Below, piece by piece: positions 27,650-32,690 of a stretch of DNA of 33,640 nucleotides. The notes under the pieces were generated by a model. It was not told where the DNA came from and did no database searches. It saw only the letters and a program-made list of their open reading frames with translations. Source of the stretch: Acidimicrobiia bacterium (GTDB lineage: Bacteria > Actinomycetota > Acidimicrobiia > Spongiisociales > ZC4RG35); contig JALSJV010000017.1 of assembly GCA_026989215.1 (NCBI GenBank), positions 1 to 33,640 of the forward strand, given 5' to 3'. How positions within the stretch are numbered: position 1 is the stretch's first letter; each line of letters begins with the position of its first letter. Position numbers and translations under genes: made by a program.

Positions 27650-27678
27650 TTGCATCCCCCGGGCGGATCGGGCATACT
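27650..27678 (+). promoter_or_regulatory. ilvB operon promoter
   Basis: TTGCAT (27650-27655), a 17-base spacer and CATACT (27673-27678). Transcription should start at about 27684-27686, within a few bases of the leader-peptide ATG at 27688. This leaves no room for a Shine-Dalgarno sequence. Confidence 0.7.
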
Positions 27679-27687
27679 GCGCGCCTG

Positions 27688-27717
27688 ATGAACGCGACCA
27701 TTCTCGTACTTCCGTAG
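27688..27717 (+). CDS. ilvL: ilvB leader peptide MNATILVLP
   Basis: Nine-codon reading frame M-N-A-T-I-L-V-L-P followed by TAG. It holds one codon for isoleucine (ATT), two for leucine (CTC, CTT) and one for valine (GTA) in a row at 27700-27711, the three end products of the operon. ATT, GTA and CTT end in A or T and are rare in this genome, which should sharpen pausing when the charged tRNA is low. It is too short to be found by length alone; the composition, the promoter just upstream and the following terminator make the case. It probably starts on a near-leaderless mRNA. The symbol is used by analogy. Confidence 0.85.
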   Translation: MNATILVLP

Positions 27718-27781
27718 CGCACACGCCCTTCCGACAACGGCGTGTGCGCTCCCGATGCCCTCCCGACCAGGAGGGTTTTTT
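27717..27781 (+). terminator. ilvB attenuator: pause hairpin and intrinsic terminator
   Basis: A perfect 11-base stem pairs GCGCACACGCC (27717-27727) with GGCGTGTGCGC (27739-27749). A terminator stem, CCCTCC (27758-27763) with GGAGGG (27770-27775), is followed by six T (27776-27781). A stalled ribosome on the Ile/Leu/Val codons would cover the left arm of the first stem. The freed GGCGT (27739-27743) can then pair with ATGCC (27755-27759), which takes bases from the terminator's left arm. This third structure is short and is my inference. ilvB starts 22 bases beyond the T-run. Confidence 0.85.
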
Positions 27782-27803
27782 CGTTCCCGAACCAGGATCC
27801 ACC

Positions 27804-29513
27804 ATGAGCACGATCACCGGCGCCCAAGCTCTCATCACCGCCCTCGAACACGAAGGGGTCGACGTCGTCTTCGGCGTCCCCGGCGGAGCGATCCTCCCCG
27901 CCTACGACCCCCTCCACGAGAGCCCGATCCGCCACATCCTTGCCCGTCACGAGCAGGGCGCCGGCCACATGGCCGAGGGCTACGCCTGGGCGACGGGCCG
28001 GGTGGGGGTGGCGATGGCGACCTCCGGACCCGGCGCCACCAACCTGGTGACGCCGCTGGCCGACGCCCTCATGGATTCGGTGCCCCTGGTGGCGATCACC
28101 GGCCAGGTCCCCACCTCGTCGGTCGGCAACGACGCCTTCCAGGAGGCGTACACCACCGGGATCACGATGCCCGCCACCAAACACAACTACTTCGTCACCG
28201 ACGTCGACGAGATCGCTCAGGTGGTACGGGAGGCATTCCACATCGCCTCCACCGGACGCCCCGGTCCGGTCCTCATCGACCTCCCCAAGAACGTCCTCAA
28301 CGCCACCACCACCTGGCGCGACCCCGGTGCGGTCTCTCTCGCCGGGTACAAACCCACGGTGGAGGGACATCCCCGCAGGGTGAAGGAGGCGGTGGAGCTG
28401 ATCACCGAGGCGCAGCGTCCGGTCCTCTACGTCGGCGGCGGGATCATCAAGGCGAACGCCGCCGCCGAGCTGCGGCGTTTCGCCGAAGTGACCAACGTGC
28501 CGGTCACCACCACCCTCATGGGGCGGGGAGCGTTCCCCGACGACCACCGGCTCGCCCTGGGGATGCCGGGCATGCATGGCACCTACACCGCCATCACCGC
28601 CCTCCAGAAGGCCGACCTCCTCATCGCCATCGGGGTCCGCTTCGACGACCGGGTGACCGGCAAGGTGGAGACCTTCGCCCCCCACGCCAAGGTGATCCAC
28701 GTGGACGTGGACCCGGCCGAGATCGGCAAGGTCCGTACCCCCGACGTCCCCATCGTCGGCGACGCCCGACGGGTCCTCGGCCAGCTCCTCGAGGCCTGGG
28801 CCGGTCGGGAGACCCCGGATCGCCAGCCGTGGCTGGACACGATCGCGGCGTGGAAGCGGGACTTCCCCCTGCGCTACGACCAGCGGCCCGACGGTCCGAT
28901 CAAGCCCCAATTCGTCATCGAGGAGCTGTACCGTCTCACCGGCGGCGACGCCACCCTGGTCGCGGGGGTCGGCCAACACCAGATGTGGGCGTCCCAGTTC
29001 TGGCGGTTCTCCGACCCGCGACGCTGGATCAACTCCGGTGGACTGGGGACGATGGGGTTCGCCATCCCCGCCGCCATCGGCGCCAAGGTGGGTCGACCCG
29101 ACGACCTCGTCTACGCCATCGACGGGGACGGCAGCTTCCAGATGACCTTCCAGGAGCTGATCACCGCGGCCGACGAGGGGATCCCGATCAAGGTGGCCGT
29201 GTTCAACAACCAGTCCTACGGGATGGTCACCCAATGGCAGAAGCTGTTCTACGGCGGCAGGCTCTCCGCCTCCGTGCTGGGTGACGGCGTGGACTACGTC
29301 AAGGTCGCCGAAGGTCTCGGCTGTGTCGGTTTCCGGGCGGAGACACCCGACGAGGTGGCACCGACCCTGGAGAAGTCCCTCGCCGTCGACGATCGGCCCG
29401 TGGTCGTGGAGCTGGTGGTGGACCCCGACGAGATGGTGTTCCCGATGGTGCCCGCCGGAGCCTCCAACGACGAGGTCATCCTCGGCCCCGACGACCTGGG
29501 GAGGAGCTCGTGA
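27804..29513 (+). CDS. ilvB: Acetolactate synthase large subunit
   Basis: Thiamine-diphosphate enzyme making acetolactate or acetohydroxybutyrate, the first shared step of branched-chain synthesis. The 569 residues contain the catalytic E50 (ARHEQGAGHMAEGYA), the FAD/substrate region (GRGAFPDDHRLALGMPGMHG) and the TPP motif from G441-D442-G443 to NN (GDGSFQMTFQELITAADEG and on to FNNQSYGMV). The length fits the anabolic AHAS. ATG 27804 follows the attenuator, with AGGA seven bases upstream. It overlaps ilvN by four bases (GTGA). Regulation by leader-peptide attenuation is likely. Confidence 0.97.
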   Translation: MSTITGAQALITALEHEGVDVVFGVPGGAILPAYDPLHESPIRHILARHEQGAGHMAEGYAWATGRVGVAMATSGPGATNLVTPLADALMDSVPLVAITGQVPTSSVGNDAFQEAYTTGITMPATKHNYFVTDVDEIAQVVREAFHIASTGRPGPVLIDLPKNVLNATTTWRDPGAVSLAGYKPTVEGHPRRVKEAVELITEAQRPVLYVGGGIIKANAAAELRRFAEVTNVPVTTTLMGRGAFPDDHRLALGMPGMHGTYTAITALQKADLLIAIGVRFDDRVTGKVETFAPHAKVIHVDVDPAEIGKVRTPDVPIVGDARRVLGQLLEAWAGRETPDRQPWLDTIAAWKRDFPLRYDQRPDGPIKPQFVIEELYRLTGGDATLVAGVGQHQMWASQFWRFSDPRRWINSGGLGTMGFAIPAAIGAKVGRPDDLVYAIDGDGSFQMTFQELITAADEGIPIKVAVFNNQSYGMVTQWQKLFYGGRLSASVLGDGVDYVKVAEGLGCVGFRAETPDEVAPTLEKSLAVDDRPVVVELVVDPDEMVFPMVPAGASNDEVILGPDDLGRSS

Positions 29514-30013
29514 AACACACCCTCTCGGTGCTCGTCGAGAACCGTCCCGGGGTCCTCGCCCGGGTCGCCTCCCTCCTCGCCCGCCGTGGCTTCAACATCC
29601 ATTCCCTGGCGGTGGGCCCCACCTCGGAGCCGGGCATGTCGCGGATGACGATCGTCGTCGACGCCCCCGAGCTGGAGCAGGTGAAGAAACAGCTCCACAA
29701 ACTGGTGAACGTGGTCCGGATCACCGAGCTCGACCCGGCGAACTCGCTGGAGCGGGAGATCATGCTCGTCCGGGTGGCCGCCCCTGCCGGCAAGCGAGGC
29801 GAGGTGTTGGAGATCGCCTCCATCTTCAAGGCGACGGCCGTCGACGTCGGACCGTCCTCGATGTGTTTTCAGATCTCCGGCACACCTGCCAAGATCAACG
29901 ACTTCCTGGACCTGGTACGGCCCTACGGGATCGTCGATCTCGTGAAGTCGGGACGGATCGCCATGGCCAGGGAGCAGAAGACGAAACCCGGTCGGCTGCG
30001 AGCGGTCAACTGA
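29510..30013 (+). CDS. ilvN: Acetolactate synthase small regulatory subunit
   Basis: Regulatory subunit of 167 residues with an N-terminal ACT domain (about residues 3-78: [33 protein letters not shown]) that binds valine for feedback inhibition in homologues, then a C-terminal domain typical of IlvN/IlvH. GTG 29510 overlaps the ilvB TGA, giving equal production of both subunits. ilvC starts ten bases after its stop. The Gly and Asn residues of the ACT effector site (about position 28) look conserved (GFNIHSL), so feedback sensitivity is expected but not proven. Confidence 0.96.
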
Positions 30014-30023
30014 AGGACATCCG

Positions 30024-31028
30024 ATGGCGACGATCTACCACGACGACGACACGAACCCCGAGGTCATCAGGGCCCGCAAGGTGGCCGTGATCGGGTTCGG
30101 CTCCCAGGGCCACGCCCACGCCCTCAACCTCTCCGATTCGGGCGTCGACGTCGTGGTGGGCCTGCGGCCCGGATCGTCGAACCGGGAGACGGCGGCGGAG
30201 GAGGGGTTGACGGTGATGGACGTCCCCGACGCCGCCGCCTGGGCCGACGTGATCATGCTGCTCGTCCCCGACCAGCACATGGCCGACCTGTATCACGAGC
30301 AGATCGCCCCCCACCTCTCCTCCCGGGACGCCCTCATGTTCGCCCACGGGTTCAACATCCACTACGGCACGATCCAGCCTCCCGACGACGTGGACGTGCT
30401 CATGGTCGCCCCGAAGGGACCGGGACATCTCGTCCGCCGAACCTACACGGAGGGCTCCGGCGTCCCCTGCCTGTTGGCCGTCCACCAGGACGCCACCGGC
30501 GGCGCCCGGGAGCTGGGCCTCTCCTACGCCTGGGCGATCGGGGGTGCCCGGGCGGGCGTGCTGGAGACCACCTTCAAGGAGGAGACCGAGACCGACCTGT
30601 TCGGCGAGCAGGTGATCCTCTGCGGAGGCGTGTCGGCGCTCATCCAGGCCTCCTACGAGACGTTGGTGGAGGCCGGCTACCAGCCGGAGTCCGCCTACTT
30701 CGAGACGCTCCACGAGCTCAAGCTCATCGTCGACCTGCTGTATGAGGGGGGTCTGTCCTGGATGCGCTACTCGATCTCCGACACCGCCGAATACGGCGAC
30801 TACACCCGGGGTCCCCGCATCGTCACCGAGGAGACCCGCAACGAGATGCGGCGGGTGCTGGAGGAGATCCAGTCGGGTGCCTTCGCCCGGGAATGGATCG
30901 CCCAGGCGAAGGAGGGCGCCCCGTTCCTCCTCGAGCAGCGTGAAGCGCAGCGGAGCTCCGAGATCGAGCGGGTCGGGCGGGAGCTCCGCCGCCTGATGCC
31001 CTTCCTCACCCCCAAGGAGCCGTCATGA
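30024..31028 (+). CDS. ilvC: Ketol-acid reductoisomerase
   Basis: Class I KARI of 334 residues; it isomerises and reduces acetolactate to dihydroxyisovalerate. The nucleotide motif [13 protein letters not shown] is at residues 24-36, H108 is in [10 protein letters not shown], and the metal ligands are D191 and E195 (ETDLFGEQ). The cofactor loop at about 46-55 reads [10 protein letters not shown]; the conserved NADPH-binding Ser of the GSxS pattern is Asn53 here. The third member of the ilvBNC operon, it ends with TGA overlapping the ATG of the leuA leader peptide. Confidence 0.97.

Positions 31029-31184: not shown

Positions 31185-32686
<1,502 letters not shown>

Positions 32687-32690
<4 letters not shown>

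Follow-up and report, generated by a model that had tools for sequence, protein, structure and literature searches.

The region in front of ilvB in the window, by which we mean the whole 33,640-nucleotide stretch of Acidimicrobiia DNA analysed here, very likely holds a transcription attenuator whose sensor is a run of isoleucine, leucine and valine codons in a nine-residue leader peptide. The fuller explanation, in which a ribosome translating this peptide governs transcription of the operon ilvB-ilvN-ilvC-leuA through all of the steps set out below, seems to us a likely one. The element is real and conserved, probably a functional ribosome-mediated attenuator of a known kind, in a compact form which under our folding models gives a negative result in the test that defines a classical antiterminator.

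The Leader Region in the Window

All features discussed here lie on the forward strand. A sigma-70-like promoter, with counterparts of similar layout in relatives, many of which have a better −35 box, occupies positions 27650–27678 and consists of TTGCAT (27650–27655), a 17-base spacer and CATACT (27673–27678). The spacing from the −10 box places the probable transcription start 0–5 bases 5′ of the leader ATG, i.e., at 27683–27688. The leader open reading frame (27688–27717), whose last codons are conserved among relatives, encodes MNATILVLP: ATG at 27688–27690, then AAC GCG ACC ATT CTC GTA CTT CCG, and the stop codon TAG at 27715–27717. Its presumed control codons, ATT CTC GTA CTT (Ile Leu Val Leu; 27700–27711), are supported by their conserved position in 50 of 50 leaders and by codon bias, and lie upstream of the following hairpin, termed H1, rather than inside its 5′ arm. 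H1 (27716–27750) overlaps the stop codon and has 12 base pairs, formed by arms 27716–27727 and 27739–27750 around a loop of 11; it is supported by covariation and opens with ribosome position in folding. After a gap of 6 bases follows an intrinsic terminator (27757–27781), found by sequence and by a terminator scan and having counterparts in relatives, with a 7-base-pair stem (arms 27757–27763 and 27770–27776) and six T at 27776–27781.

The operon genes downstream were named by NCBIfam: ilvB, acetolactate synthase large subunit (27804–29513; TIGR00118, 797 bits, cut-off 538); ilvN, acetolactate synthase small subunit (29510–30013; NF008864, 203 bits, cut-off 119); ilvC, ketol-acid reductoisomerase (30024–31028; NF004017, 537 bits, cut-off 336); and leuA, 2-isopropylmalate synthase (31185–32690; TIGR00973, 642 bits, cut-off 599).

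Most of these parts had been named in the original prediction, and the promoter, the nine-codon peptide, the six-T terminator and the two short sequences GGCGT (27739–27743) and ATGCC (27755–27759), proposed as antiterminator partners, are all present; the hairpin is present too, with a stem of 12 base pairs and a loop of 11 in place of the 11 base pairs described. A generic promoter scan of the window does not list the leader promoter, whose −35 box equals the consensus in 3 of 6 positions, and the terminator scan of the region finds 1 terminator where 0.5 is expected by chance; the window alone is therefore weak evidence, and conservation must carry the case. No Rfam leader family reaches its gathering cut-off in the window, the best sub-threshold one by score being Phe_leader (24.9 bits versus 55).

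Genomes, Loci and Row Selection

Loci of ilvB were collected by IlvB from 60 related genomes and from the contigs of named genomes, the latter comprising 80 records mostly titled Acidimicrobiia or other Actinobacteria, with a few carrying other labels. The 110 ilvB loci gave 99 distinct upstream regions, 82 of which had both a terminator and an open reading frame, and 69 of these (67 distinct) were kept. The scan rule found no terminator in 14 upstream regions and the ORF rule no ORF in 3; among the terminator-less regions, some (L075, L098 and L101, for example) have a leader that inspection by eye reveals, L060 and L062 have none, and L040 is masked. Geometry filters and a hand-made list of seven rows (L064, L078, L079, L080, L083, L087, L094) together removed a further 13. 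Fifty of the 69 kept rows come from L001–L062, and 38 of those 50 form the alignment A1; L016 is identical to L014 and was merged with it, so that L001–L019 amount to 18 rows. Leader codons are numbered backwards from the stop, −1 being the last codon.

A second set consists of the loci of the element itself: 32 from relatives and 80 among the class matches listed, 112 in total, of which 110 have a leader by rule. The two exceptions, L181 and L269, both stand before cimA and each has two Ile codons near the end. Eight of the 40 element regions fetched (L194–L201, ilvB again) were left out, and 10 of the 52 ilvB leaders in this set are identical to rows of the first. Gene labels at these loci are the best tblastn match to six reference proteins, with the kind that resembles 3-isopropylmalate dehydrogenase (leuB-like) read from translations. 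The 8 leuA rows were misparsed by the terminator rule, their hairpin spacing reaching 19, and were excluded from folding.

Conservation and Covariation Across the Class

The covariance model made for the element, which draws on 38 ilvB leaders, most of them from these same genomes, and gives rough E-values, has matches in 54 of the 60 relatives (E 0.01) and in at least 209 of 296 genomes of the class Acidimicrobiia at the same threshold, many of the class matches being weak. Phylum-wide, 21 of 296 genomes match at E 0.001, 8 inside the class and 13 outside.

What is conserved most clearly is the end of the leader. Ile, Leu or Val occupies codons −2, −3 and −4 in all 50 leaders kept from L001–L062 and codon −5 in 45 of them, and in the closest rows the leader ends (ATT/ATC)-CTC-GTA-CTT-(codon)-stop and its stop codon sits at the H1 base. 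The full peptide MNATILVLP is found only in a genome of the same genus (G001; rows L002/L031), the ILVL run just 5′ of the stop being kept more widely. The original prediction had named a lack of conservation of the nine codons in relatives as a refutation; this applies in part, since the last of them are strongly conserved and the first are not.

The stem of H1 shows covariation. Over 38 rows, 89.2% of its cells are paired (76.5 in shuffles), 49 cells are changed on both sides (15.2 in shuffles), and the covariation is 0.397 (0.193 in shuffles, and 0.05–0.17 when the stem is slid), with 0 of 500 shuffles reaching the observed value in each case. The number of H1 pairs with two-sided change, 8 of 11, does not exceed the shuffles in these 38 rows (mean 6.6, 89/500). 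The hairpin starts at −1 to +2 of the stop in 63 of 69 rows and has a median stability of −19 kcal/mol (38 rows). A special constraint on its 3′ arm, whose U and G bases vary less than the 5′ arm, was considered and dropped, because G-U pairs are tolerated and account for the lower variation.

Three genomes of family f8, which belongs to the same order (G040, G047 and G053, 96–98% complete), have neither a good ilvB match nor the element, which suggests loss of the branched-chain pathway there; the element is present in two further f8 genomes, G157 and G255.

The Leader Codons as Probable Sensor

The leaders favour codons that the ilvB genes use little. With the expectation taken from the ilvB genes of the same genomes, and counting the last eight codons of the 50 leaders, which are related rows, GTA makes up 50 of 61 Val codons (2.8 expected), CTT 42 of 120 Leu codons (7.1 expected) and ATT 19 of 54 Ile codons (4.4 expected); in the 38 A1 rows alone, GTA accounts for 39 of 47 Val codons. 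In the window's own ilvB the same codons are nearly absent (GTA 1/59, CTT 1/42, ATT 0/30), which agrees with the rare codons remarked on at the outset. By this measure, the rare leader codons are selected. GTA stands at −3 in 27 leaders, −5 in 17, −4 in 5 and −2 in 1, and since its position thus varies relative to H1, it is the codon that is kept, not a fixed position in the RNA. The genome has 43 tRNA matches, with one gene each for tRNA-Val(UAC), tRNA-Leu(GAG) and tRNA-Ile(GAU); Elf and colleagues are said to have provided a theory in which certain isoacceptors make sensitive sensors.

In relatives, the same cassette is also found before cimA, leuA and the leuB-like gene (L162–L193 and L222–L301), and the codons follow the product. 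Counted over the last seven codons, the leaders before cimA (n=44) contain 149 Ile, 3 Leu and 3 Val codons, and those before leuA (n=8) contain 35 Leu, 2 Val and 1 Ile, while before ilvB (n=52) there are 116 Leu, 105 Val and 33 Ile, or 89, 90 and 23 without the 10 rows shared with the first set. Before the leuB-like gene (n=6) the counts are 13 Ile, 8 Val and 4 Leu. One gene of each new kind was checked by NCBIfam, and was recognized as citramalate synthase (682 bits, cut-off 450), 2-isopropylmalate synthase (802 bits, cut-off 697) and 3-isopropylmalate dehydrogenase (487 bits, cut-off 393), respectively. This matching of codons to operons, read from sequence, is the strongest evidence that the codons would act as the sensor. 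Together with the conservation and the codon bias, it backs the ilvB attenuator that was originally proposed.

Two further leaders deserve mention. A second ilvB in the window's genome, 64% identical, is preceded by a leader MNLDLIIIH with a hairpin and a terminator (G000, contig C66, 20451–20543, minus strand; L141); its three Ile codons in a row imply that the second acetohydroxyacid synthase (AHAS) may be tuned to isoleucine. The ilvB leaders of loci L103–L110 are of a different type and layout; several of them repeat GTA codons ahead of a GGCGC/GCGCC hairpin.

Proposed Leaderless Entry of the Ribosome

In all 18 rows of L001–L019, a −10-like hexamer ends 9–13 bases before the leader start. 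Over the 69 ilvB rows this distance is 8–13 bases in 42, 24–35 in 14 and other in 7, with no hexamer found in 6. A promoter was found before 38 of 44 cimA leaders, 37 of them at 6–11 bases from the start, and before 37 of 52 leaders in the class-wide ilvB set, only 16 of which lie at 6–14 bases.

Pairing with the anti-Shine-Dalgarno sequence is weak at the near-leaderless starts (median +1.0 kcal/mol, with 2 at −4 or better; 40 of 42 rows, all but L096 and L099), intermediate in the other class of leader (median −3.5, 15 rows) and clear at the ilvB starts themselves (53 found, median −5.7, 40 at −4 or better). The rows with the −10 box at 24–35 bases form a second class of leader (L020, L028, L043, L047, L050–L052, L054–L059 and L061), so that near-leaderless and leadered versions of one attenuator coexist.

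Sequence spacing thus supports transcription beginning on or beside the ATG in the neighbourhood of the window and in the cimA leaders, but not in every ilvB leader; the claim of a transcription start within a few bases of the leader ATG is supported for L001–L019 by promoter spacing and does not extend to ilvB leaders generally. This manner of entry had also been thought unusual, which it is not, because the transcription start of C. glutamicum ilvBNC is described as lying one base from the leader ATG (PMC11857589).

Folding of H1 and the Search for an Antiterminator

The footprint of a ribosome reaches 12 bases from its A site. Folding was performed at equilibrium with a hard mask of this size, and under these conditions the pair probability of H1 depends steeply on where the ribosome stands, with medians over the 69 leaders of 0.98 at codon −4, 0.81 at −3, 0.48 at −2, 0.02 at −1 and 0 at the stop. 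For most of the stall positions the distance to H1 downstream is thus about one footprint, and the hairpin opens once the ribosome has reached the stop. Counted over any partner, pairing of the H1 3′ arm is still 0.38 with the ribosome at the stop, since the arm, once freed, pairs weakly elsewhere.

Equilibrium folding of the whole leader, terminator included, was rejected as a test of antitermination because the proven attenuator thrL of E. coli also gave a terminator probability of 1 in every ribosome state. In the test that replaced it, only the RNA up to the terminator loop was folded, with E. coli thrL as the positive control. The control passed: the terminator 5′ arm of thrL is held with probability 1.0 on the ten codons scanned to the last ACC, then falls from 0.75 to 0.16, and reaches 0.01 at the stop. 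Among the 69 leaders, by the same test, the arm is held at 0.5 or above in none at codons −5, −4 and −3, in 2 at −2 and in 12 at the stop, the medians being 0.12, 0.08, 0.08 and 0.14 on −5 to −2 and 0.31 at the stop. In the window it is paired with probability 0.02 on the Ile codon, 0.03 on Leu, 0.08 on Val, 0.27 on the second Leu and 0.51 at the stop. The second set behaves alike, the numbers of leaders at 0.5 or above on −5 to −2 and at the stop being 0, 0, 0, 0 and 7 of 52 for ilvB, 0, 0, 0, 1 and 7 of 44 for cimA, and 0, 0, 0, 1 and 4 of 6 for the leuB-like gene. Applied to L103–L110, presumed attenuators of a multi-hairpin type, the folding test showed no clear switch.

From equilibrium folding and one positive control, an antiterminator thus seems to be absent at the stall. 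The suspicion that the mechanism might differ from the enteric model is in line with this result, as folding finds no pairing that holds the terminator arm when the ribosome is stalled.

Proposed Mechanism

We propose that RNA polymerase starts at or within about 5 bases of the leader ATG, and that a ribosome loads at the 5′ end to translate MNATILVLP. When charged Ile-, Leu- and Val-tRNA are plentiful, the ribosome would soon stand at the UAG, where its leading edge would cover the 5′ arm of H1; H1 would open, the RNA up to the terminator would be free, and the terminator would fold, turning the operon off. When one of these tRNAs is short, the ribosome would halt on ATT, CTC, GTA or CTT, with its leading edge at or just inside the base of H1, which would be wholly or largely folded. 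The folded hairpin would then take up RNA between ribosome and polymerase, leaving some 10–19 free bases instead of 39, and the stalled ribosome would sterically keep the terminator from closing, leading to read-through. This last link, from a folded H1 to read-through by drawing the ribosome near the polymerase, is offered tentatively, as a possibility that we favour without expecting it to be right.

Extended to the whole class, the proposal becomes one of attenuators that have no antiterminator and use a hairpin about one footprint past the sensing codons as a distance ruler, a generalization that is speculative. With the ruler folded, the free RNA would shrink to some 9–17 bases, and the stalled ribosome would be jammed against the polymerase so that the terminator is blocked; with the ruler open and the ribosome at the stop, about 28 bases (39 in the window) would be paid out and termination would proceed. 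The cassette would be re-tuned by a few codon swaps: to Ile for cimA, to Leu for leuA, and to all three amino acids for ilvB.

In E. coli, a terminator few bases past the stop is described as almost fully repressed by the ribosome, with maximum termination beyond ~27–30 bases, and the distance threshold as strongly sequence-dependent (0.8 at 18 bases in one series against 0.12 at 17 in a second; PMC4824070). When H1 is counted as having zero length, which ignores the size of a 12-base-pair helix, the median distances from A site to terminator over the 69 leaders are 15, 12 and 9 bases at codons −5, −4 and −3, and at codon −4 the distance is below 27 in 65 of 69. From the stop, with H1 open, the median is 28 (10–90%: 22–36), and no more than 36 of 69 first-set rows exceed 27, as do 31/52 (ilvB), 23/44 (cimA) and 1/6 (leuB-like) rows of the second. 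The window itself has 19, 16, 13 and 10 bases in the stalled states and 39 with H1 open. The distances fit a steric block of the pyrBI type in part. By these numbers, a hairpin that takes up the slack is possible.

Alternative Explanations

Pause hairpins are a standard part of attenuators. H1 could be one, bringing polymerase and ribosome into step, with read-through then set kinetically by polymerase speed and terminator folding; a stable hairpin directly 5′ of the terminator, with the median of −19 kcal/mol given above, is what this explanation would call for. It gives no sign to the response by itself, and it does not account for the finding that in 50 of 50 leaders the stop adjoins H1 and is preceded by Ile, Leu or Val codons at −2 to −4; we consider it unlikely, if still the best of the alternatives.

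H1 might instead be the antiterminator itself, overlapping the base of the terminator in a low-energy exchange, like the shared GCC of C. glutamicum. The geometry has the same sign, H1 being folded when the ribosome stalls, and the stems as scanned do overlap by 1–2 bases in 17 of 69 rows, eight of which are of the AT-rich Actinomarina type. In the window, however, the two stems are 6 bases apart, a gap of at least 1 base is present in 49 of 69 rows, and the terminator arm is not lost to the terminator at the stall, which makes this reading improbable.

In a classical attenuator, GGCGT/ATGCC, the pairing put forward originally, or some other pairing of the H1 3′ arm with the terminator 5′ side would be the antiterminator. 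Published models of actinobacterial ilvB leaders do contain alternative hairpins (PMC11857589, PMC13236596), and the five pairs are possible in the window and in G001. Among the 38 rows, however, all five form only in this same-genus pair (L001 and L002) and four of the five in 7 more, so that the pairing between 27739–27743 and 27755–27759 is not conserved, and in none of the 38 is the duplex between the two sides better than shuffles (p<0.05). GGCGT and ATGCC are, moreover, freed only when the ribosome nears the stop, as in a well-fed cell, which is the wrong sign for an antiterminator; the terminator 5′ arm is likewise held in 0 of 69 leaders at −5 to −3 and in 12 at the stop, opposite to the 1.0 of the stalled thrL control. 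We regard the classical pairing as quite improbable here.

The leader frame is nearly stop-free from 27715 to 27781 and in the homologous stretches, and the other frames are not. This could reflect a leaky UAG, with read-through ribosomes traversing H1 and the terminator and thereby setting basal expression. Of all the stop triplets between leader stop and terminator end, those in the leader frame number 0 of 57 in the 69 ilvB rows, 3 of 32 in the second set, and 1 of 27 after both sets are thinned to <0.85 similarity; two apparent ones, L240 (a tandem stop) and L298 (terminator end misparsed), were set aside. TAG serves as the leader's stop codon in 44 of 50 rows, while at these loci ilvB itself terminates with TGA in 45 of 50, and the read-through frame of the window ends in the TGA of ilvB's ATGA. 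Against this, the rows are related, L165, L166 and L294 break the stop-free rule, and the TAG is explicable by the pairing of its G at the base of H1. Past the terminator, the stops by frame are unbiased in the first set (21, 24, 27) and low in the leader frame in the second (15, 24, 33), so that the effect reaches beyond the stretch ahead of the terminator; the offset between the leader and ilvB frames varies (19, 16 and 15 of 50 rows), and a leaky stop has no link to starvation. It is accordingly a very improbable account. A frameshift that would fuse the leader to ilvB was rejected too: in the window the reading frame of ilvB stays open for a long way upstream, but the frames are unrelated across the 50 rows.

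That the reading frame arose by chance, with the terminator in a leader that is unregulated or otherwise regulated, could lean on the S. coelicolor ilvB leader, in which codon changes were without effect as told in PMC1262725, but is made highly implausible by the matching of codons to operons, the codon bias and the conservation.

Comparison with Known Attenuators

The closest known relatives are actinobacterial. In the descriptions of C. glutamicum ilvBNC and of the ilvB-II motif, an ilvB leader peptide one base from the transcription start, control codons of which GUA and CUU are named as conserved, and a hairpin before an intrinsic terminator are found (PMC11857589, PMC10272879); the window has the like, its start beside the peptide being predicted from promoter spacing. 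In C. glutamicum the peptide is 15 residues long and a GCC is common to the antiterminator and the terminator base, whereas the window, compared by description only, has 9 residues and an H1 that overlaps the stop and lies 6 bases off the terminator. In the account of M. tuberculosis ilvB1NC, GUA is likewise regulatory, and a hairpin that is masked while the ribosome stands at the stop can form when it stalls on LVVI (PMC13236596). That leader is 166 bases long, with mutually exclusive anti-terminator and terminator; no exclusive pairing was found here. The direction of the H1 switch agrees with what is described for M. tuberculosis ilvB1 (PMC13236596) and C. glutamicum (PMC11857589). As far as the C. 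glutamicum account goes, leaderless ilvB attenuation is already known, and the window's family is not new in kind.

Searches of a collection of open-access papers found no paper on leader-peptide attenuation in Acidimicrobi*, none by title, among the matches listed, on citramalate synthase with isoleucine codons, and, in a narrow search, none on attenuation without an antiterminator.

Enteric attenuators, of which thrL was folded here, share with the window the leader codons for the regulated amino acids and the intrinsic terminator. They differ in that thrL holds the terminator arm in its antiterminator at the stall (1.0), compared with 0.02–0.08 on Ile, Leu and Val in the window, and in that the control codons of the window lie upstream of H1 and not within it.

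The pyrBI attenuator of E. coli senses pyrimidine supply through polymerase speed. It resembles what we propose for the window in that a nearby ribosome is reported to block the terminator sterically (PMC4824070), and differs in that, in the window, codons would stop the ribosome and H1 would make up the distance.

Significance

These findings would extend near-leaderless or leaderless attenuation from a few studied actinobacteria to a large and mostly uncultured class. They also present a natural codon-exchange experiment, in which one RNA cassette stands before four kinds of genes of one pathway and its codons follow the product. If the antiterminator is truly missing, the family would allow the control of termination by a hairpin, through the distance between ribosome and polymerase, to be tested directly.
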